Below are positions 35,885 through 47,285 of a DNA stretch of 64,000 bases, one piece after another. The notes beneath the pieces were generated by a model. It made no database searches, had not been told where the DNA came from, and worked only from the letters and a program-made list of their open reading frames with translations. A program made the position numbers and the translations under genes. Source of the stretch: Macrocystis pyrifera (taxonomy: Eukaryota > Sar > Phaeophyceae > Laminariales > Laminariaceae); assembly GCA_031763025.1 (NCBI GenBank), contig JASSKH010000002.1:1604929-1668928 (forward strand). Direction: 5' to 3'. The stretch's first letter is position 1. Each line of letters begins with the position of its first letter.

Positions 35885-36170
35885 GATCCCGGGCATAGTC
35901 GCTGAAAATTGTGCCGAAAATTGTTGGCAAGTTACCCCGAAGATGGTTGGGAAGTGATTCCGAAGGTCGCTGGGAAAGTTGTCCCGAAGGTTTCCCCGAA
36001 GATTTTTGTCTCTGATATTTTCCGGAATCGTTTCCCGTTGATTGTTCTGACGATTGTCCCGGAGGGGTTACCCCGAGGACTTTCCTGAATATTTTTTTGA
36101 GAGGTTTCCGCTAAGGTTCTGCTAGGGATGTCCGGAATATTGTCCGGAGAAGGACTCCGGGCGAATAGAG
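35885..36170. repeat. Diverged CCCGAAGATTGTTGGGAA repeat
   Basis: Irregular units of about 25-30 bp built on GTTGGGAA, GTCCCGAAGGT and TTCCGGAAT alternate through the region. Confidence 0.65.
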
Positions 36171-36689
36171 ACTGCAGGGTAGTAGTATGGGTCACAGCGA
36201 TTAGTTAAAAAATGCACCCTAGAGTAAGTCAAGCTTAAGAAACTGTCAGTGATTTTTGATGATGAGCGCGTTTTTCTTGAGTTGTCTTGGTCTCATTTCT
36301 CGTGATATTCTTCTGCCTGTGTCTGTTTTTCTTCTTGTTTCTGGCGTGTGTTTGTTTTGTGATTTTACCGCTTTTGATTGGTAGCTGTCGGCGTTGCTAT
36401 CGTGGTTGATGTTCGTGTTTGTTGTTGATATTGTTGTGACTTATGGCTTTCATAACAACCGGCTCGAAGCAATCACAGCTCTTCCTCTGCACATGTCCCA
36501 AGGGCACATCTCGAGGCGCTCCCAGTTTTTTTTTCGTGTGATACACGGTACCAGGTACCAAGTATGCCATACCAGGTACGCTCTAAAGACCCGAAGGACA
36601 TCTTCGAGGGTGATTTTTGATCGATAATATGCTCTCGATGCGCTTGAACGAATTTTACGAGGGTAGTGTTTTTTGTCGAGGATATGGTA

Positions 36690-37215
36690 CTCTGCATGTA
36701 CCCGGGTATCTACCCGGGTATGAATTAAGAAGGGGGGTTTTAGTAGGGTATACACTTGAGATAAACCCTAGTACCTGCCTCGGTATCTACTGCTCGGGTA
36801 TGACTCTACATTGGTGTGTTGAGTGGAGACTACCCTCTGGAGGCATCTATCCGAGTATCTGCGAGGGTACCGGCCCGGGTGTGATTCTACAAGGGTGTGT
36901 TGAATAGGGTAGATGCTCTGGATGTACCCGGGTATTACCCGGGTATCTACTTCTCGGGTGTGACTCTACAAGGGTAGGGTAGATGTTGTGGATGTACCCG
37001 GGTATCTAACCGGCATGGGTATCTGCCCGGGTATGACTATACAATCGTGTGTTTTATGTGTACCCCGGATATCTACCTGGGTAACTACTCGAGCACGACT
37101 CTAAGGGGTATGCCGAGTAGGTCTGCATGTACCCGGGTATCTATCCGGGTATGAATCTACAAGGGCGTGTTAAGTAGGGAGTACACTCTAGATGTACCTG
37201 GGCACGTACCCGGGC
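36690..37215. repeat. TACCCGGGTATCTACCCGGG minisatellite
   Basis: About eight units of 60-75 bp: GATGTACCCGGGTATCTACC, CGGGTATGACTCTACAAGGG and TGTGTTGAGTAGGGTA. Each holds one to three ACCCGGGT palindromes. It has no open protein. Confidence 0.85.
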
Positions 37216-37795
37216 ATGGCCAACATAGCAATCGGGGTTGCCCCAGAGTACACTCTCGGACAAACTCTTGGAAAATTTCAGAGGTGAGCTGCGCGAAATT
37301 GTCAGAAAGGAGACCTAAACCGGATGGATTCGACGGGTAACTAAGTACCTGTTACCCCCACTACCCCCCCGTCCGTCCTTCGGTACGGTAATGGTGCGAG
37401 TCCGGGACTTTCGCCCTCCCCTCCTGCCGCTCCTTTCCCTCCCCCAACTTTTTCCAGCGTTTTTCAGCGGTCTCAAGCTTGTCACCGCAGTCAGTTCGAT
37501 AATGGTTTCGGGCGAAGGGGGGGGGGGGAGGAGAATATGGTGTAATAAATCGAGCTGTGTGTTTTGTCGGATGTGCGACGTTAGTTTATTTATTTTTGGC
37601 CGCGCAGGGAGGGGGAGGGGAGGGGGGGGGGGGGGGAGGGGACAGCAAATCATTTTTTTTTTTTCCGTCTTTCTGGTTTTTGGTTTTGGTGATGGCTGTT
37701 GGGTTTTGGTTTGTTTGTTTTTTTTACGGTGTGGTACGTATATATTTTTCCTGACACACATGTGTGGAGGTTGGTATATTTCTGGGCCGTTGGCG

Positions 37796-37897
37796 TCGCA
37801 GGTTGACTCCGCAACCTATCTCAGGGCGAGCCTTCTAACGGGCGCTTTTTTGTTGGTGGTGGCAGTGGGGGTGTACTTATGTCATGTATGGCCCTAG
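37796..37897 (+). CDS. Candidate transmembrane exon, unassigned
   Basis: After GTTGGCGTCGCAG (acceptor ending 37801) the open frame reads VDSATYLRASLLTGAFLLVV, AVGVYLCHVWP, then stop. It holds one convincing hydrophobic helix. No donor in phase is obvious and no partner exon is identified, so a second membrane-protein gene in 37-46 kb is only a possibility. The 480 bp before it contain G-rich tracts (37517-37528, 37611-37640). Confidence 0.25.
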   Translation, partial: SQVDSATYLRASLLTGAFLLVVAVGVYLCHVWP

Positions 37898-38261
37898 TCG
37901 CATGGCCATACACCCTCTAATTCTTAGAATCTCGGGACGGAGCACGTCGAGTTCTTCACCGACCAGCCAGATATTGATTGCCCGCACCAAACGAAGCGTG
38001 CCGTGTGGTGTTCATCGGGTCACATCATGAAGAGGGTGAGATGCATCCTACGAAGAACCGCTTCCGAGGCGGGTTTCGAAAACCTTGCATGCATGCGTAC
38101 TCTTCTTGCATGTGGATGACACCATGGCCGCTCCGTGACGACCCGCGATGTTGTTTCCCGGCCGCTTCAAACACGCCGTGTTGTTTTTTTGGACTTCCGC
38201 CTGCTTTAGTTAGCCGCAAGGTTAGGCCGCTGGTTCTGTCGTGAGGAATTTTTCTTTGCAG

Positions 38262-38495
38262 AGGGAATCAGTGGTTAAAGCCAATCACCTTGGCAGTCTG
38301 GGTCGGTTGGCGCTCTCATCGCTGCGGGTCGATTTTTATTCTTGGGTGGAACCGGAGGAATTAAAGCGGGGTAATTTCTGTATTTCAACGGATGTACCGT
38401 TGTGGCAGTTGAATGAGTATGGTCGGGTTGTTGATTGGCCGTATTGCGGGGCAATGCCTGCGTCAATGGCTACATTGATGGCAGTCGCGCAATAA
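38262..38495 (+). other. Open frame after a strong acceptor
   Basis: TTTTTCTTTGCAG (ending 38261) precedes an open frame of 78 codons (begins RESVVKANHLGS, ends MATLMAVAQ stop). Composition is protein-like, but the second half resembles the diverged repeats that continue to 39.28 kb. I do not recognise a family. Confidence 0.25.
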
Positions 38496-38499
38496 ATAG

Positions 38500-39285
38500 T
38501 GTAGGATTGATCGGCTGTATGTAATGCGGAGAAAGGCTTATTACTTCAGACATTACAGTTAGTTATCGCAGTTATGTGAAATAGGGTCGGCTTTGGCTTT
38601 TGCACTTTGAACTTGAACGCGTTTGTAGTTGTGGCGACTTTGTGAAAAGCAAAATTTGGCTCCGTGGATGGAATGCGGGGCGATGTCAAATTAATACTTC
38701 GGCGGTCACATAGTTGTAGGAGTTGTGTGCGGCAGGATTGGTCCGTTGCAGTGCAGGAAGATATTTTGTCCATCGGTCAAAGTTAGGGCAGTTGCGTCAA
38801 GCGGGAGGGGCACGGGACATTGCCGGATTCAACGGGTATGTTTGAGGCAGGTATATCAAGCTGTACAGGTTCGCCCGCCGCAGGGCGGGACAACGTCTGA
38901 TTTGTCGGATTGTAGGGGGGCAGTCGTGTGAAGGAGGGTTGGCCATTTGTATCGCAGAGCAGTGTCTGACCCATCGGTTGCTACTGAGGCTGTTGTGCGA
39001 TTTGTGAGCTTGGGAGCGGTAGCTGCAGTAGATGATAATTTCTATTTCAACGGCTTACAGCAGGTTACAGTTATCGCGGACCAGCTGCAACCTACAGTAG
39101 GGGAATGACTGCCCCACCGGGGTAATACAACCTTTTTCAGTAGTTAAGTGAAATGCGGGACAGTCAGTAGGTATTTGGCTGCACATGCGGACCAATACGT
39201 TGGTGCGGGTAAATTAGACTGATGGTGACGCAGGGTGGATTGACTGCAATTTGCAGCGTCTTCAGTGAGACATTAATTGGATTAA
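38500..39285. repeat. Diverged tandem-like GCAGTTGTGTGAA sequence
   Basis: Recurring motifs GATTGGTCCGTTGCAG, GATTTGTCGGATTGTAGG, GCAGTTGCGTCAAG and CAGTTAGTTATCGCAG at irregular 60-100 bp spacing suggest an old satellite. Confidence 0.5.
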
Positions 39286-39289
39286 ATTG

Positions 39290-39790
39290 AGTTGGCTGTT
39301 ATTTCGTACTGGTACATAGCGTTTGTGCATGAAGGCATGTTACATAAAGGTCAGACATATGTAATGGGCATCTTCGATGATACAGGAATGGAGTGCATTG
39401 ATTGCCTTTTTTTATACCTAGATGGCGTTCGTGTAAGTGCTTATTTCTTCGTCCGATTGGTCCGAGATGCGTTTATTTTCGGAGTCCCCGGTTCCTAGAG
39501 GACCATCCTGCTAATAGCATACCGGCCCTGGTTAAAAATCGTACCGTTTGTAGAATTTTTGTTCGTTTGCGGGACAAAGGAGGAGGCCGAGAAGAGGACG
39601 CGAGTGTTTTGTTATTGTTCCTTGTTTTTTAGTTTTGTTCTTTACTTCCCCCGTCCATTATATCGAAAAATCACGTTTTTCTCATTGCCAGTATTATCTG
39701 TTATTGCGGTTTCAATCACGGGGGGGAGGGGAAGGTCGGGGGTGGCGGTAGGAGTATCGTATTTCCCTAGGGTATCTAGAAGCAAAATTA
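39290..39790. other. No gene recognised
   Basis: Open frames in 39292-39632 are short and overlap; none shows a motif. Confidence 0.4.
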
Positions 39791-39799
39791 ATTGCCTGT

Positions 39800-40115
39800 C
39801 CTAACGGACAAAATGACAAAAAAACGGTGCACCAGTGCTTTTTTGCCAGTTTTCGGTACGAAAAACTCAAACCAGGTCATCAGGGTACACCAAACCCAAG
39901 TTAGATGGCATTTTCTGTGAAGGTATACCGTTTTTTTTGGCAAAACATCCATGTCCGTCCGTCTCACTTGCAAAAATGCCAAAAGACGGTACACCATCGT
40001 ATTCTTGCCAATTTACGGCACGAAAAGTAAAACGAGGTGATCAGGGCACACCAAACCCAAGTCATATGAAATTTTCTGTCAAGGTATACCGTTTTCTGGC
40101 AAATGAACAATGTCC
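39800..40115. repeat. Tandem duplication, about 160-bp unit
   Basis: Two units share ACGGTRCACCA, TTTTTGCCA, GGTCATCAGGG, ACACCAAACCCAAGT, GAAATTTTCTGT and AAGGTATACCGTTTT. They have diverged by perhaps 15-20%. Confidence 0.8.
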
Positions 40116-40560
40116 CGGTACAGCTTATATTTTCGAACAAGCACTGCGTGCGTCAATAGAAGCGCCTTCTCGTACTCGTATTCATACGAACATACCAGGT
40201 ACGAGTCAAGCGTTGCTTATATAATCTGAAGCCATTTTATTTCGTTTCGTGCGCGTGCGTGTAGTCAGAACACGGTACCGCGGGCGAGCCCGACACACCG
40301 CCGCGAGTGTCAGCGGGTGCTAGCAGGCAGAGGGGGTGTTGCAAGGAGCGCCTTGGCCGTTTGCATGTCTAGGCGTCGCGTGTGTCTCGAGACACGCCGG
40401 AAGCACAAATGGTATCTGTCTGGCCTCCTTGTGAGGCTCCTCTTGCACCATATACGAGATATAAGGGTCGTTTTGATATGCGAAATAGTATTCAAGCGGT
40501 GCTTATTTTTGCGACCAAACTAAACGTCAAAGAGACTTCAATGCAGTTTGAGCACCAACT

Positions 40561-40782
40561 TTGTCGAAGTGGCGAAGCAGGGCCATGGTGAGCGCCGGGC
40601 TTGACGCGAGGCGGTCGGCGACGCTCACTGTGGCAGAGAGGGAGGAAAACTTTATCCGGACCCAATCGGTGATGAGGTGGTCGCGAGACGGGCGGGCGGT
40701 GTACAAGGCTAAGAGGGAAGCTCTCCTGTTCGTTTTTTTTTTCTTTTTGACCGGTGGAACGGGCAAGCGGAAAACGCAGCTC
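40561..40782 (+). pseudogene. PIF1-like helicase, N-terminal fragment
   Basis: The last part reads REALLFVFFFFLTGGTGKRK then TQL, before GTGAGT (40783), a good donor. LTGGxGxGKT is the P-loop (Walker A) of PIF1-family DNA helicases; here the Gly before the final Lys is replaced by Arg (GKRKT), which should weaken ATP binding. A T-rich run (40733-40748) supplies the Phe stretch and may be an expansion. Upstream, ENFIRTQSVMRWSRDGRAVY is compatible with the short region before the P-loop. The 5' end is not defined. The next recognisable helicase segment is motif V, so motifs Ia to IV are missing. Confidence 0.45.
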
Positions 40783-41324
40783 GTGAGTCACGTTTAAAAA
40801 ATTAACTCAGGGGACGATAAGTAACTATCCCCTTGTACCCGCGTCGTCCAACCCCATACAAACATACACACCGTTGGTTACTCCGGTCAGCAAGTCAGGC
40901 GATCTTACGTACCGAACACATGCCAAGACTGAGACTGACGCGGCCACGAACCGCGGCTAAGCAAGATACGAAAGCAAAATCGCTCGCAGTAGCCTTTGTC
41001 CTTTTGCGGTCTAGTCTAAAGCGCTAGATTCGAGCAGCTACCTCGGCACGAGGAGCGAGAAGCCTAACAATAACAACACAGCAGTCCAGGTTGAAGCATG
41101 CCTTCAAAAAAGAGGTGGGTGCAGATGTGCAGATGGTTTAGACTGCTGTAGACCGACCTACCGTTGTATCTATCGCTGTCGCTCGTGACTCTTGACCAGA
41201 GGGTTTGGCTGTTGATTCACAGCAGTTTTTTTTCCTTGTGTCGAATGTGGCCCTGTTTGGTTGGTCGGATCTGTGAGTTCAACCGATCGGTCGATACTCA
41301 ACTTTCTGTACACCCCGGACAGCT
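40783..41324. other. Possible intron or deleted part of the helicase locus
   Basis: No helicase motif is seen in any frame. The stretch starts as a canonical donor (GTGAGT), so it could be an intron grown by insertion or a region where coding DNA was lost. Confidence 0.4.
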
Positions 41325-41535
41325 CATGAGCTAGCTCATCTATCGTGCATAGCTCACGCTTCGAAAACATGTGCAGATGAGCTACCGCCTATAGCTCAAG
41401 CAGGGGGAAACATGTATAGCAGCTCATGTAGCTCCTATAGCTCATCTCGGGCGCAGATGAGCTACTGTAACTCATGTAGCTCCTATAGCTCAGCCTGGGA
41501 AAATGTGTGTAGATGAGCTCTCTTCTGTAGCTCAA
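41325..41535. repeat. GATGAGCTACTGTAGCTCAT minisatellite
   Basis: About four units of 50-70 bp carrying AGCTCATGTAGCTCCTATAG, CAGATGAGCTAC and GGGAAAACATGTGTA. AGCT is palindromic throughout. It ends just before helicase coding sequence resumes. Confidence 0.8.
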
Positions 41536-41540
41536 GCCTT

Positions 41541-42225
41541 CCAAACATCGACGCCGCCGACAGAGCTGGGCTAAAGCTGGACGGGCTCCCTCGAGGTGTC
41601 ATCGGCTGCTGTCCGGTTTACAGGAAGTTCTCCATCGTTGGTAAAGGCAAGCGGAAATTCACCATCAACAGAATGCAGGTTTCTCTGTCTCTTGGTATTC
41701 TTTCATCAGTCTATCGAGCACAAGGCGAAACCATCCCTAAACTTGTGCTCGACATTCGCAAGCCAGTAGACGGCTATAACGTTGCTCTGTCCCGAGCGAC
41801 CGATGCCAGCAAGCTCTTCTTGCTGTCGCCGGTTACTCTTGACGATCTGACCCATCCACAGGACGACGATGTAGCGGCTATGATCGACTACCTCGAACGC
41901 CTCGACAAGGCTACAGTAGCCTTGTTCTTGGATGATCCCTCTTCATTCCGACCGGCCACGACAAGTCCTCCGGCTAGTTATACATCCCACACCAACGACG
42001 GACAAACAGACACCGGCTCCATCCGCCCTTCACCTTTTCTGCCGCCCAATGAGAACAACAATTGCTTCTTCAACACCTCCATCGCCTCCGCTATAGCTGC
42101 TTGGGAAAGGACGCCCTCTCCCCAACCCAACCATGGCAACACCAGCTGGAGCCATCTTCTTCTCCACTCTTGCGGCTGTGCGTGCCTGCATGTTCGACGG
42201 CAAGCCTCTCCAACGCACCCTCTTG
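41541..42225 (+). pseudogene. PIF1-like helicase C-terminus joined to C19-like Cys box
   Basis: The frame reads DGLPRGVIGCCPVYRKFSIV, GKGKRKFTINRMQVSLSLGI, SSVYRAQGETIPKLVLDIRK and YNVALSRATDASKLFLLSP. GLPxGV, VYRAQGETI and YNVALSRAT correspond to the C-terminal region of PIF1-type helicases (motifs V and VI; ALSRA carries the arginine finger). From about residue 150, after a Pro/Thr/Ser linker, PPNENNNCFFNTSIASAIAA resembles the catalytic Cys box of ubiquitin-specific proteases (Cys codon 42063-42065). Downstream, TPAGAIFFSTLAAVRACMFD is in the +1 frame and fits such proteases better than the open frame does, which suggests a one-base shift near 42110-42140. It ends at donor GTAAGT (42226). 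Roles: DNA unwinding and ubiquitin removal (family knowledge). Confidence 0.6.
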
Positions 42226-42368
42226 GTAAGTTCTTGGTTGTTCTGCTATCCATATCTCGTCGTAATATTACCCTCCAATACTTACCGGCGCCCCAAGTAC
42301 CCATATATACATAAACACTACGCTGTGCTTTCATGTGTCTTCTAAACGTATTGTATCATTTCGTTCAG

Positions 42369-43039
42369 TATGCGTCGCATTCTTTGGCGGAATGCAGGAT
42401 TCTTTGGCTCAAGCACGTGACAAGATCCTTGGTAGTAGCGGCCTACCGGGCGCAGGATCCGTAATGGGAACGCCGGGCTCCATATACGAAGCGATCACCC
42501 TTCGACCTGATGATCAACTCCACCCCAACAGCGGGTGGCCAGGTAACGTCGTGGAACGGCATGCTCGTATCATGCACACTCGGACGGCTCTCGGATTCAA
42601 CTGGCACTACACTACCGATTGCCATATCGAAGACCATGGTCATATCGAGATAACCGCATCCCAATGTGCACGATGGCGAGATCCCGCACCAGTCTTGATT
42701 CCGCACGGGCCGCCCCAGTCACTCCAGGATGCAGTCAATGCCTTGTTCCTAACCGGAGCCGCTTCCGACTTCTCATTTCCTGGACCTGCTCCGTGCCCCC
42801 CCTACGACGAGAGCTGCGCCCTGCACATCAGCACATCCACATGGTCGATTCTTCCTTGGAGTGCGGACAACGCCCCAGATCGCGTTTTCTTCGCGTCTGC
42901 ACGTGTAGACATCTACGAGGACGCCGGAGAGCCGCCAGCACCGTCACCCATTTTCATAAGCTTTGAGTACAGCCTCGTAGCTGTCATCTACTCCATTCCC
43001 AACCATTTCGTGACCCAGTTGCGTTCGAGAGGGGGGTGA
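42369..43039 (+). CDS. C19-like protease domain, C-terminal exon
   Basis: After TGTATCATTTCGTTCAG the frame reads CVAFFGGMQDSLAQARDKIL; GGMQDS falls where these proteases have the QQD(A/S)-type box. Farther on, PPQSLQDAVNALFLTG resembles their SLQDAL segment, and FEYSLVAVIYSIPNHFVTQL the catalytic His box (His codon 43004-43006; usual pattern YxLxAVxxHxGxxxGHYVA, here NHF for GHY). Stop at 43037-43039. It joins the previous exon in the helicase reading frame (one base plus two), so a single fused protein is possible. Lost Gly and altered His box suggest weak or no peptidase activity. Identification is by motif memory only. Confidence 0.55.
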
Positions 43040-43049
43040 TTGAAGTACG

Positions 43050-44205
43050 ATTGCATACTCGGGGGGGGGAGTACCACGTCTTGCGACGATTTCGACTATG
43101 ACTGGTATCATGGTTTCCAGCATATGTATGTCTACCTTCGAAATTCTATGACCTTGCCTGTTCCCCAGGCACAAACGACACCATACTGCTAGCTACCATG
43201 AGCGCGCAAGCCAAGAACGCGCGAAGATAATCGAGGCGACTAGACAAGGACCCATCATGCCTCCGCCTTACCGAAGTCCTGGCCACTACGACGTGGGGGA
43301 GCGCAGCTGTGCCTTGCCGACTCGACTCCGACGTGCCGCCGCCTTGAGCGTCTCACGTGTTCTTCACATGTGTGTTGAAACGTTTTGATTTTTGATGTGA
43401 TATTGCTTCTCGATTAGGACTGCCTGCCTTCTTCTTTCCCTCTTTTTGCTAGAACGAATTTTGTAGAAATGTTGCACGGCGCGTCCAGCCTTTCGAGTTC
43501 TGCGCGGCTACATTTATATTAACTGTTCGGTCGACAGAGTGTTGTTTACGGGGTGCATGTACGTGACGATCATCGGCGAAAAGTCTACTTGTATGCCTTT
43601 TGTCATCTTTGACTTTACGGCAGCGTTTTATTTGGTGTGGGTGTGTTCGAGACACGCCGAGGTCATCGCAATCTGCGCGATGCGACTGTGACGTTTTGTT
43701 TATGTGTTTGCTTCGAAATAGCGCCAACAGCAGCATCTGCAAACAAGTAATATTCTACGTGGCAAATATCGACGTCGCGAGAGGATTGTCATACCGCCGG
43801 CCAACCTTTTGTTATATGGTAAAACCCTAGGGAACAGCGGGGCAACCCTTGCCCTGCCCTACATAGAGTATTGATACAAAAAGAGAGGGTTACCATGATA
43901 ACCATATGAAAGCTTTGCAACATCTATAAAACCACACCTTGCAAGGGCTGTGGCGGGTGGGGCCTTTTGACACTCGATGGGTGCGAGCGGGACAAATAGT
44001 CAACCGACGAATAGTTCGTTTTTTGTTTGTTCGGTTTTGAAACGAAAATCGTTTCGAACGGACACAACAAGCGGCTCAACCACGCCTTATGACCGGTTCT
44101 ACCTGTTTGTGTACGTCGTCGAGACACTTCTCCTACGAGAAGTTTAACGAATGTCATTGATACTTCGATATCGAAGTCGTTTGGACCACTTCGAATGTGC
44201 TTCGA
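43050..44205. other. No gene recognised
   Basis: Unique sequence downstream of the helicase-protease locus. No element or exon is supported; palindrome-like TTCGATATCGAAGT lies at 44164-44177. Confidence 0.4.
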
Positions 44206-44212
44206 ACAGTTA

Positions 44213-44317
44213 TTACGGGGGACCATAGTAAACAGGACCAAATATTGTTAGTAAAATTACCCGAATATATAGGTTTTTATGTGTGCCATAGGTCCTGCTA
44301 ACTATGGACCCCCGTAA
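44213..44317. mobile_element. MITE-A copy (hybrid arms)
   Basis: Left GACCATAGTAAACAGGACC, right CTGCTAACTATGGACCCCCG; TA flanks (44211-44212, 44318-44319). Confidence 0.85.
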
Positions 44318-44752
44318 TAGTTGTTGTCCAACTGAGGCCGATGTATAATAATAGACGGAAAAGTAACGAACTCGACAAATAGAGACAACTCAGGGCAGTA
44401 TAAATCCCCCTCCTGCAGAAAGAAGGGGACATGTCGCGACACTTTTTTACCCTCCCCTCCCCTGCACATCAAACACGGTGCCGTTTCCATGCATTCATCG
44501 CAAGATATATGTTTTCATGCCCCAAACTTACCCCAAAGGATCGCTACTACTGTAGTGGACCCCTCTTCTTGAACGAATCCGATCTCGAACCCGCCCCCTC
44601 GTGGCATGATTGATATCGTACCACAAAGCCTACCGATCTCAAACTTGACGGCAGAGCGCTAACGGCGCATACATGCGTGGTAAGACAGCTGCAAGCTGTC
44701 CGCCAGGGGTAAACAGATTCAGATCAACGCTACGTATAGATTTGTACATACA

Positions 44753-45028
44753 ATGGATATCTCTAGTGTAGAATCGCTATCCATAAAGGGGTTGGAAACG
44801 AAAGATAAGAGGGAGAAAATCGTTAGCGCGGACGCCGTCATAATCGACTGGCAGAAGCAACTCGAGCGAGGAATCAGCAACAAACACAATGACTATAATA
44901 CCTCAAAACCTTCAAGAGTGACCAGTCCATCCCGCAATATTATCGCCCTATTAATAGAGCCCTCTCGTATATATATATATATATATCATGTGGGCGGGCT
45001 GCTGAAGGGTACACCCAATGATGGCTGA
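44753..45028 (+). other. Open frame, 91 codons, unassigned
   Basis: ATG at 44753 opens MDISSVESLSIKGLETKDKR, then EKIVSADAVIIDWQKQLERG; charged and protein-like for about 60 codons, then it runs into an (AT)n stretch. Downstream in another frame GTCKFCENLEEDSADEALC (45084-45135) has a CxxC pair. No family is recognised. Confidence 0.25.
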
Positions 45029-45143
45029 CTTTGAGGCAATATGTACCGACCACCCGCCGGCCAATCCCACGACCAACACAACGGGACATGTAAGTTTTGT
45101 GAAAACCTTGAAGAAGATTCCGCCGATGAGGCACTATGCACTA

Positions 45144-45250
45144 TTACGGGGGACCATGCTTAACAGGACCAAATATTGTTAGTAAAAATAGTTAACTATA
45201 TAGGTTTTTTTATGTATATCATAGGTCCTGTTAACTATGGACCTCCGTAA
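45144..45250. mobile_element. MITE-A copy (hybrid arms)
   Basis: Left GACCATGCTTAACAGGACC, right CTGTTAACTATGGACCTCCG; TA at 45142-45143 and 45251-45252. Confidence 0.85.
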
Positions 45251-45302
45251 TACCAGGTTTAGGAAATTTTCCTCAGTACCCTTTACCCTTTTAGAACTGT
45301 TA

Positions 45303-45407
45303 TTACGGGGGGCCATAGTAAACAGGACCTACGGTACACTCAAAAACCTATACATTTACCTGTTTTTGCCAACAATATTTGGTCCTATCTACTATGGTCC
45401 CCCGTAA
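45303..45407. mobile_element. MITE-A copy
   Basis: TTACGGGGGGCCATAGTAAA to TGGTCCCCCGTAA, only 52 bp after the previous copy and with the core in the opposite orientation. Confidence 0.85.
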
Positions 45408-45415
45408 CAGCAGCA

Positions 45416-45482
45416 CAGTAATGGGGAACAAACAACTATTATAGTTCCAAGTGCTGTAATTTGTCCCCAAAACGGGACTGTG
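45416..45482. mobile_element. Fold-B foldback element
   Basis: Left arm eroded (CACAGTAATGGGGAACAAAC); right arm TTTGTCCCCAAAACGGGACT is intact. Confidence 0.6.
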
Positions 45483-45734
45483 TACTCCTCCCAAAGGGTT
45501 AAATTAAGACTCGTGGGACTTCAGAGGGGGAAAAAAGTGACGGATACAACGACGTCCACTGCGTGTGGTTGGGGGATGACACGATGGTTGGTGCCCCAGT
45601 TGCAATGGTTAGATGCAAGGAGGGAGTCTTGCGGCACGGCTGCAACATGAATGATCCCAGATACCCGCAATGCTGCTGGGCGCTCACGCTTCTCTCGCAG
45701 TTGATAGCAGCCAAGTTATCGTGCTTTTTTTTTT

Positions 45735-45905
45735 GTCGAGCCCCGTCACAGTCGAATGTCGGCCAAGAAGGGGCGCCCCGATGATAGCGTACATAGCACG
45801 CGTCTACCTCACGGTGGGCGCGGCTCTTCTCGTGCTACTGTCTGTCTGCGGTTCCTGGAGAGACGGGCCGTATGTATGGGGTACGGGAAGATATATCGTG
45901 TGTAC
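45735..45905 (+). CDS. Candidate transmembrane exon, unassigned
   Basis: After a T(9) tract an open frame reads PVTVECRPRRGAP, MIAYIARVYLTVGAALLVLL, SVCGSWRDGPYVWG. The hydrophobic segment is convincing and the local GC content resembles the 7TM exons. Acceptor (TTTGTCGAG or GTCACAG) and donor are uncertain, and a (GTT)n run follows at 45967-45999. Upstream, in another frame, WLGDDTMVGAPVAMVRCKEG (45563-45640) is also protein-like. Confidence 0.3.
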
Positions 45906-45965
45906 ATGGTATATATATACATCTTCGGACAAGGTAGGTTGTTTGCATGCTTGCTTTTGGTTTCG

Positions 45966-45996
<31 letters not shown>

Positions 45997-46314
45997 GCTG
46001 CTGCTGCTACGCGTGCTGTCAAAATACGTGCACTCTATCGTATAGGAGGCTATGCCAACCGGAGAAATAAGGGTGGCGGGCAGACCCTCGAAGAAGAGGA
46101 AGGCGGTGAATATTTAGCCGTGGCCTGCAAGCAAAATAACCTGTCAGTAATATCGGATCCTATTATTAATGAAACAATCAAAATCAATTTATTTTATTCA
46201 CACTGATACAGGTTGTTCCCATTTGAGAAAATCAAGAAATATAATCAACCAACTTAAGGCGTTCATTTTTTGCCAATAACGGGTTGACTATCATGGGACG
46301 CGCGTGCCACCGAT

Positions 46315-46507
46315 CTGAGTGCTGAGCGTGACGTGGGACCCGCTGCCAAAAGGAACCGTGGATTTGACTCAGTATATGGGCGCTCTTAGCAGCTTCGAAG
46401 AAATCAACAATGTTCGGCGAGGGGTTTGGCGACAAGTTGCAGGTGGTGGCACGGCTGGTCTCGGTGACAGTATCGTGTGCCTCGGAGATGACTCACACAG
46501 CAATTAA
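46315..46507 (+). other. Open frame, unassigned
   Basis: LSVTWDPLPKGTVDLTQYMG, ALSSFEEINNVRRGVWRQVA, then stop at 46505-46507. Protein-like composition but no recognised motif; could be a terminal exon. Confidence 0.25.
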
Positions 46508-46585
46508 CTACGGTAGAACTTCGTTTGCTATCTACTATATTTTCTCCTGAAATGAATAATTAATCGGTAGTCAGCGATGTTTCAC

Positions 46586-46745
46586 GCCGAGTGCACCTGT
46601 ACAAACTGGCGCCGAGGGACCGCTAAGCTGCTACAGGGGAAGGAGGGAAGAAACCGGAGCGCTGCTGACAACGACGTCGGGGTGGGACACTGACGAGGCG
46701 GGGTAGGTATATAGCGTAAACGAGGTTTTTCCAAGGGATGCAGGT
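46586..46745. repeat. GCCGAGTGCRCC dispersed repeat, copy 1
   Basis: ACGCCGAGTGCACC, GAGGGACCGCTAAGCTGCT, GGAGGGAAGAAACCGGAGCG, CTGCTGA, GTGGGACACTGACGAGGCGG and CCAAGGG align with 58160-58315. A weaker third copy lies at about 61520-61640. Confidence 0.65.
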
Positions 46746-46814
46746 GCAAGCAAGAAGAGCCTTTTCAAGGAGGGAGTATATATCTGATGCAGGTTGATGG
46801 AAGAGAAACTACTA

Positions 46815-46908
46815 TTATCACGGGGGACCATAGTCAATAGGACCTACTGTTAACACAATTATTACTAGCAATATTTGGTCCTATTTACTATGGTCCCCCG
46901 TGATAACA
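46815..46908. mobile_element. MITE-A copy with TTATCACGGGGG ends
   Basis: Both termini carry the matching change (TTATCACGGGGGACCATAG / CTATGGTCCCCCGTGATAA), and the core is shortened. Matching changes in both arms imply this variant transposed as such. Confidence 0.8.
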
Positions 46909-46909
46909 T

Positions 46910-47285
46910 TAATGTTGCGGTATTCGAAGATATCCGCTCCAAATCGGAACGGAACATGTACGATACACCAACTCATTGTCAGAGGGCAAAATCCAAGAAT
47001 TCACACCGACTGCGTAGCTCGATGCATTACACGTACGTACTGTTGTCGTATCGCTGTTTCGCGAATCATATCATCCACATACTAAAGGGCGACTACGCAC
47101 GGTATTATCCGCGCCGACTTAAAACACGGAAGGTGCCGTCAGTCAGACCTGAATCCTAGACAAAAATCACACCAATTATTATATACTGCACGATAGCAGC
47201 GCCCCTTGTGAATACCTAACCGATGCCCCACCAATCAGATCTGAAGGAGCGACATTTTCTTGTCTCGCCTTGGAACAACAAAATC
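46910..47285. other. No gene recognised
   Basis: Unique sequence; a 94-codon open frame starts inside the MITE and has no domain. Confidence 0.35.

Follow-up and report, generated by a model that had tools for sequence, protein, structure and literature searches.

A decayed mobile repeat of Macrocystis pyrifera with Helentron-like ends and part of a PIF1 helicase gene, probably joined to a divergent USP-like domain

We analysed a stretch of 64,000 nucleotides from Macrocystis pyrifera (hereafter the window; GC 48.7%), which corresponds to positions 1,604,929 to 1,668,928 of contig JASSKH010000002.1 in assembly GCA_031763025.1 (C200:1604929-1668928 of 537,376,219 bases; all C and L labels below denote contigs and loci of this assembly). 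An initial annotation of the window, made from the letters alone, had proposed a PIF1-type helicase fused to a ubiquitin-protease-like domain. Window positions 39763-43863 are one decayed copy of an interspersed mobile repeat of about 4.1 kb. With a probability of roughly two in three, this is a copy of a non-autonomous rolling-circle element of the Helentron/HINE-like kind that carries the 3′ part of a PIF1-USP-like gene, either as a transposase remnant or as cargo. The carried part has two exons and would encode the C-terminal half of a helicase of the PIF1 type, followed by a linker and by a divergent cysteine-protease-like domain that resembles USPs (peptidase C19). As a decayed copy of a non-autonomous transposon the unit is ordinary in kind; its cargo, PIF1 together with a USP-like domain, is unusual. 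The unit and its ends are as follows.

39763-43863, + strand: the whole repeat unit, one copy of 4101 nt, delimited by blastn against 20 fetched loci
39763-39772, + strand: 5′ terminus TTCCCTAGGG with the palindromic CCCTAGGG, the 5′ arm of a subterminal inverted repeat
43825-43832, + strand: CCCTAGGG, the 3′ arm of the subterminal inverted repeat, 31 nt before the 3′ end
43837-43857, + strand: 3′ hairpin GCGGGGCAA-CCC-TTGCCCTGC, 6 nt before the 3′ end

To compare copies, 20 loci were fetched from the assembly and window positions 36001-47000 were aligned with them by blastn. The number of loci covered rose from 0 at position 39750 to 16 at 39800, and fell from 20 at 43850 to 0 at 43900. Homology began at 39759-39774 in 16 of the 20 loci (in L017 this start is the 5′ end of an adjoining copy), further in for L019, L020, L021 and L027, and stopped at 43863-43882 in all 20. 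Since shared homology begins and stops there, we take 39763-43863 as the unit; outside it the sole matches in the compared interval were a repeat at 37867-38076 and sequences from 44211 onward that resemble miniature inverted-repeat transposable elements (MITEs). Ten copies with both ends located, the window copy included, measure 3947-4344 nt. A search of the assembly with the exon-2 protein returned at least 151 matches, one of them the window itself and the others 81-96% identical; this is a lower bound, because 150 of 958 candidates were scored. Relatives in the genome are numerous, and the initial annotation's suggestion of a selfish element is borne out: the repeat is a high-copy mobile element with Helentron/HINE-like ends.

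In the window copy CCCTAGGG sits 2 nt from the 5′ end, and the element terminates in CCCTACA after the 3′ hairpin. An exact CCCTAGGG was present in 16 of the 20 loci and lay close to both ends in 12 (manual count), while the loop and 3′ arm of the 9-bp hairpin were matched by pattern in every locus. No target duplication was seen: repeats across the junctions averaged 1.5 nt, as compared with 1.97 nt in mismatched pairs (10 copies including the window's, out of 11 tried; L016 was dropped when its 3′ end was not found). The flanks are AT-rich (63% and 82% of 10 nt), with AT immediately 3′ of the end in 8 of 10 copies, and in two copies (L009 and L017) another 5′ end follows directly, in head-to-tail arrangement. 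Thomas et al. 2014 (PMC4067079) describe HINE elements as having palindromic subterminal inverted repeats that lie 2-4 nt inside the 5′ end and 38-60 nt inside the 3′ end, a 3′ palindrome 8-35 nt from the end and, in some copies, tandem repeats. Our repeat resembles these non-autonomous Helentrons, to which DINE-1 belongs, in its palindromic subterminal inverted repeats, 3′ palindrome and internal repeats, as well as in its high copy number, the lack of a detected Rep in the unit and the lack of target duplication in the copies tested. It differs from them in carrying a helicase-protease gene fragment with an intron, and in that no autonomous partner was found for it.

Could the repeat instead belong to another class of DNA transposon, for instance an element with short terminal inverted repeats? 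The 5′ and 3′ CCCTAGGG blocks do form an inverted repeat, and no Rep domain was found within the 4.1-kb unit. However, this inverted repeat is subterminal and asymmetric, the 10 copies show no target duplication, and a 3′ hairpin, two head-to-tail junctions and a helicase gene remnant all speak for a rolling-circle element; we consider a different class unlikely. Some results do weigh against the rolling-circle assignment. Four of the 20 loci lack an exact CCCTAGGG; the hairpin is of modest stability (z -1.67 for a 51-nt DNA fold, with 13 of 200 shuffles equally stable); and the 3′ subterminal repeat and the hairpin, at 31 and 6 nt, lie nearer the 3′ end than the ranges given for mite HINEs in PMC4067079. 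Moreover, although the assembly holds 63 matches to Helitron_like_N (Rep), the element had no DNA similarity to 20 Rep loci, each taken with about 1.5 kb on either side of the Rep domain, and for this reason the autonomous partner was not identified. One Rep does lie 6.2 kb upstream of a family-type helicase segment, on the same strand (C141), but this is a single pair, and about 0.18 pairs within 10 kb are expected by chance. For this pairing, 60 Rep places out of 63 and 81 helicase places out of 98 were entered; the remaining 3 and 17, mostly on low-numbered contigs, were either fragments or second matches adjacent to listed ones. If the rolling-circle assignment is right, the Rep-helicase of autonomous Helitrons in the same genome would have moved or copied the element in trans. 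Two Rep loci, L032 and L033 (C192:7093821 and C209:1840734), contain long uninterrupted Rep open reading frames (ORFs) of 1623 and 1646 codons, of which the first 1000 or so codons were read; they are candidates for recently active Helitrons.

The gene part of the unit comprises four features.

41541-41880, + strand: C-terminal part of a PIF1-type (superfamily 1B) helicase, motif V/VI region (GLPRGV, YRAQGET, ALSRAT), from phmmer against PDB
42054-42074, + strand: USP-like Cys box NNNCFFN with the putative catalytic Cys codon at 42063-42065; counting variants, in 13 of the 19 copies processed
42226-42397, + strand: family intron GTAAGT...AATGCAG, phase 0, from comparison of copies
42398-43039, + strand: second exon of the USP-like domain, up to the window copy's own stop, from comparison of copies

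As the initial annotation had noticed, GLPRGV, YRAQGET, ALSRAT and NNNCFFNT stand in one frame, in an ORF at 41517-42311 (265 aa), and MQDS, SLQDA and NHFV are present in a second ORF at 42266-43036 (257 aa). The length of these ORFs is not in itself evidence, since random 64-kb sequences of the local composition reach 166-264 codons. The period-3 signal is weak: of 1111 windows scored, those with low-complexity DNA rank highest, and the exons come within the top 9% and the top 14%. That they are chance ORFs can be rejected on other grounds, namely that the copies keep both exons and the intron.

The two pieces had been joined at 42225/42369, which gives an open frame of 451 residues spanning a GTAAGT...CAG intron. 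The stop-free join and the donor held up: GGTAAGT, with its GT at 42226, was found in 19 of the 20 loci. The acceptor did not: the CAG at 42366-42368 was absent from all 20 other loci by string match, and from 19 of 19 by alignment, whereas AATGCAG, 29 nt downstream, was found in 19 of 20, so that the family intron ends at 42397. In 13 of the 19 copies processed for splicing it measures 173 nt, and the exons join in phase 0; L017 could not be used, the AG is missing from L013, and L023 is disrupted. The family protein reads, in order, PIF1 motifs V-VI, a linker, NNNCFFNTAIASAIAAWEGHPLPNP..., the intron, DSLAQARDKIL..., CPPCDESC... and VEYCLVAVIYSLPNHFVTQLRSRGRWLKYD. By a length rule both exons are long and open in 6 of these 19 copies; five of the six, without L010, made up the alignment that we call A1. 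Thus, the helicase-protease fusion recurs in other copies as one gene model across a conserved intron.

The window copy departs from this family protein in three ways: part of the motif VI region is deleted, the frame changes downstream of the Cys box, and a stop precedes the WLKYD block, ahead of the expected catalytic Asp. Because it is out of the family frame from the Cys box to the donor, that stretch of the earlier joined protein is not family protein. The copy is broken, and neither helicase nor deubiquitinase activity is expected of it. The initial annotation had imagined a fusion joining DNA unwinding with deubiquitination, possibly in defence. A functional gene of this kind in the window would fit the open frames and the splice-compatible join, but the acceptor of that join recurs in 0 of 20 other loci, the copy carries the three lesions just listed, the unit yielded no helicase motifs I-IV, and decaying relatives occupy some 150 or more places. 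We regard it as very improbable; unwinding and deubiquitination are not present activities of this interrupted copy, and no support was found for a defence-type role.

Substitutions in the copies bear on how they have evolved. Variants private to one copy are spread evenly over codon positions 1, 2 and 3 (121/118/135), and the copies thus appear to be decaying neutrally. Shared variants number 29/16/26, and the differences from the majority common to L013 and L022 number 10/2/13; these small numbers hint that position 2 may have been constrained before amplification. L017 and L019 were kept out of the counts of private and shared variants, as unrelated DNA inflates their exon-1 region.

The PIF1 identity of the helicase part is supported by sequence comparison. 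The top three of five phmmer matches in PDB were PIF1 helicases (best E 0.0023), and a profile of five copies gave four matches, three of them named PIF1 (E 0.016-0.026) and one 'AAA family ATPase' (E 0.31). Pfam contributed at most weak superfamily 1 C-terminal matches (best E 0.0055, from a longer natural copy, at 17 bits as compared with a cut-off of 27.4), and its PIF1 family (PF05970) was not among the matches for the window pieces or the natural copies. QGxT followed by ALSR in a single frame occurred in 3 of 100 random windows, the pattern having been chosen after the sequence was seen. The likeness to PIF1 helicases such as PDB 5o6b is in the motif V-VI region (E 0.0023); unlike them, the present gene has no detected N-terminal ATP-binding half and is joined to another domain. 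No PIF1-type Walker A was found in the window. In the 4.1-kb unit, helicase motifs Ia-IV, looked for by eye in ORF lists, were not found, nor was the ATP-binding half, and copies of about this length should consequently not be active helicases. The proposed PIF1-USP fusion stands at the level of the family, as a helicase C-terminal part followed by a probable divergent USP-like domain.

One feature upstream of the gene part had been read as a P-loop-like segment.

40734-40797, + strand: region of TGGTGKRKT, described as 'P-loop-like'; chance level in random sequences and comparison of copies

TGGTGKRKT is rejected as a Walker A motif. Its GK is followed by R, not S/T, it lies in a separate ORF, TGG.GK occurred in 14 of 100 random 64-kb sequences, and the frame stops within two codons of TGGTG in all 14 copies listed.

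The longer relatives indicate how the gene came to its present length. Two family copies, L013 and L022, keep more helicase upstream and have the same element ends, and so does L049, a decayed relative 45-49% identical, as regards the additional helicase. The ancestor, then, had more helicase, since these three loci keep more of it upstream. L049 (C198:9399000-9402000) has a PIF1 C-terminal part and a linker, and no protease-like domain was found in the 3 kb read there; this is a hint of a family in which the helicase and protease-like parts may be separate. It remains to consider the capture of a host gene: a rolling-circle element may have picked up and amplified a piece of a PIF1-USP gene of its host, gene capture being a known property of Helitrons. 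On its 5′ side the fragment is cut short next to a repeat-rich stretch, many copies have an open frame that begins just ahead of PNIDAAD, and there is one relative at 45-49% identity (L049, on C198). That relative is itself decayed, however, and because L013 and L022 retain more helicase within the same ends, the gene seems to have been shortened inside the element, not picked up short. A helicase is, moreover, a normal part of the Helitron Rep/Helicase protein according to PMC4067079. On balance capture is improbable, and we prefer to see the gene part as a putative left-over of an ancestral rolling-circle transposase gene that would have combined a helicase with a deubiquitinase-like domain.

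A 41-residue piece of the helicase (76-80% identical to the query), in a frame of 75-103 codons, was also seen on many mostly low-numbered contigs (C4, C5, C14, C19, C22, C32, C38, C56, C60, C98, C150, C157, C162, C166, C176, C184 and C218:19162819). Low-numbered contigs may be small unplaced pieces, and the spread may reflect one element copy within a repeated region left unplaced in the assembly.

We next turn to the protease-like domain. In the window copy, exon 2 contains CPPYDESC (mostly CPPCDESC elsewhere) and IPNHFV, with the putative catalytic His codon at 43004-43006; most other copies read past the window copy's stop and through GRWLKYD. Of 19 copies, 18 have a His box, and in these Pro or Ser stands two residues before the His. 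In L009, 257 residues separate Cys from His and 15 separate His from Asp, the Asp lying at Trp+4, which is the order and spacing of USPs; in USP7, Cys223, His464 and Asp481 are 241 and 17 residues apart. Of 19 spliced copies, 9 show this Cys/His/Asp pattern, which was written after the sequence was seen, and of 200,000 shuffles none does; the Cys-box pattern by itself, likewise chosen afterwards, occurred in 3 of 100 random windows. When L009 was aligned with human USP15 from the Cys box to the Asp, the score was 80.5 as compared with a shuffle mean of 38.4, and none of 2000 shuffles scored as high; the alignment places Cys opposite Cys, CPPC opposite CPNC and Asp opposite Asp. Against the UCH consensus, 6 of 2000 shuffles did as well.

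These results must be set against the possibility that the C-terminal domain is unrelated to USPs or lineage-specific, and that its Cys, His and Trp-x-x-Tyr-Asp motifs agree with the USP pattern by coincidence. A good deal counts for this and against a USP-like domain. The initial annotation had named the lack of a C19 profile match as refuting its reading, and none appeared: no C19 match was obtained in Pfam at E ≤10 for the window pieces, the earlier join or the natural copies, no UCH/C19 profile matched at any threshold tried, and of the 74 matches of PF00443 over the assembly (all 124 candidates scored) none, by eye, fell at a listed element place. PDB gave no match to a USP for this domain, and structure prediction of exon 2 was of no use (pLDDT 34). 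The alignment of L009 with USP8 was not significant (258 of 2000 shuffles as good), a hidden Markov model of three USP sequences scored 261 of 2000 shuffles as high as the protein and thus did not tell it apart from them, and with steeper gap costs the scores were reached by 15 of 1000 shuffles for USP15, 111 of 1000 for USP8 and 2 of 1000 for the consensus. On the other side stand the order and spacing of the motifs, the Asp at Trp+4, and the alignments to USP15 and to the UCH consensus, which beat 2000 and 1994 of 2000 shuffles, respectively; these still favour a divergent USP. We judge an unrelated domain to be rather unlikely, and the domain to be probably a divergent USP, as far as motifs and alignments can tell. 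With USP15 and USP8 it shares the Cys box, a CxxC pair, the His box and WxxYD, and in alignment it seems collinear with USP15. It is unlike known C19 peptidases in falling below every profile threshold tried, in having no clear QQDxxE box at the intron junction, in the lack of a significant alignment with USP8, and in being fused to a helicase in a transposon.

Other classes of cysteine protease were rejected. OTU proteases have DGNC, and in Ulp1 the His precedes the Cys; both identities fail on this motif order. A VTD identity fails since the Asp-x-His catalytic pair is missing; in Wc-VTD1 this pair is Asp440/His442, according to PMC9741609. That paper describes Helentrons with VTD (tegument-like) deubiquitinases or OTU domains, in which a helicase is coupled to a deubiquitinase. 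Our element resembles those of PMC9741609 in being a rolling-circle family in which a helicase and a deubiquitinase-like cysteine protease are coupled, and differs from the VTD type in its USP order and spacing and in lacking the Asp-x-His pair.

What might such a protein have done? DNA unwinding in rolling-circle transposition would have fallen to the PIF1 helicase of the ancestral full-length form, and its USP-like domain may have removed ubiquitin and so protected transposition proteins. Removal of ubiquitin has been suggested for the VTD and OTU domains of Helentrons (PMC9741609). We propose, tentatively and with the odds against it, that a lineage of rolling-circle transposons in this genome encodes a PIF1 helicase and a USP-class deubiquitinase in one protein, which would add a third protease class to OTU and VTD. 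If this were true, rolling-circle transposition would repeatedly depend on ubiquitin removal; independent support for the idea would come from a USP-like domain joined to the helicase in a different lineage, which would also offer a concrete protein for testing. The analysis also illustrates that a single decayed copy can yield a false intron and a false P-loop, both of which are removed by comparing copies.

Wider searches added no relatives. Searches of viral contigs with alignment A1, the PIF1 segment and each of the two exons confirmed no relative, and the neighbouring MITE sequence had 0 matches there. One scan of a prokaryote genome collection with exon 2 of L009 found none. In phages, tblastn with exon 1 returned 66 records, all at E 2 or worse, those listed being mostly annotated helicases. 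PHROGs gave no match, NCBIfam one at chance level (E 0.19), and Rfam and tRNA searches none; in Pfam, 10 other ORFs of the window had nothing above the curated cut-off. A literature search with a limited library and set of terms turned up neither a described PIF1-USP fusion nor a Helitron with a USP.

Two further features lie inside the unit, both upstream of the gene fragment.

39862-40095, + strand: two direct repeats of about 73 nt each, 161 nt apart and 86% alike (internal repeat family D4)
41316-41540, + strand: AGCTCAT-rich repeated stretch upstream of the gene fragment (repeat families D1 and D5)

Secondary blastn matches of the kind produced by the direct repeats were seen in most fetched loci. 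The AGCTCAT-rich stretch was not called as an array by Tandem Repeats Finder.

Two other repeats occur in the window outside the unit. The one at 37867-38076 is 73-77% alike in 4 of the 20 fetched loci (L009, L019, L021 and L027). The other is a palindromic MITE-like repeat of about 105 nt with arms GGTCCTGTTTACTATGGTCCCCCGTAA, for example at 44213-44319 and 45303-45407; with up to 3 mismatches the arms have 45 matches in the 64 kb, as compared with 0 expected, and they occur in inverted pairs.

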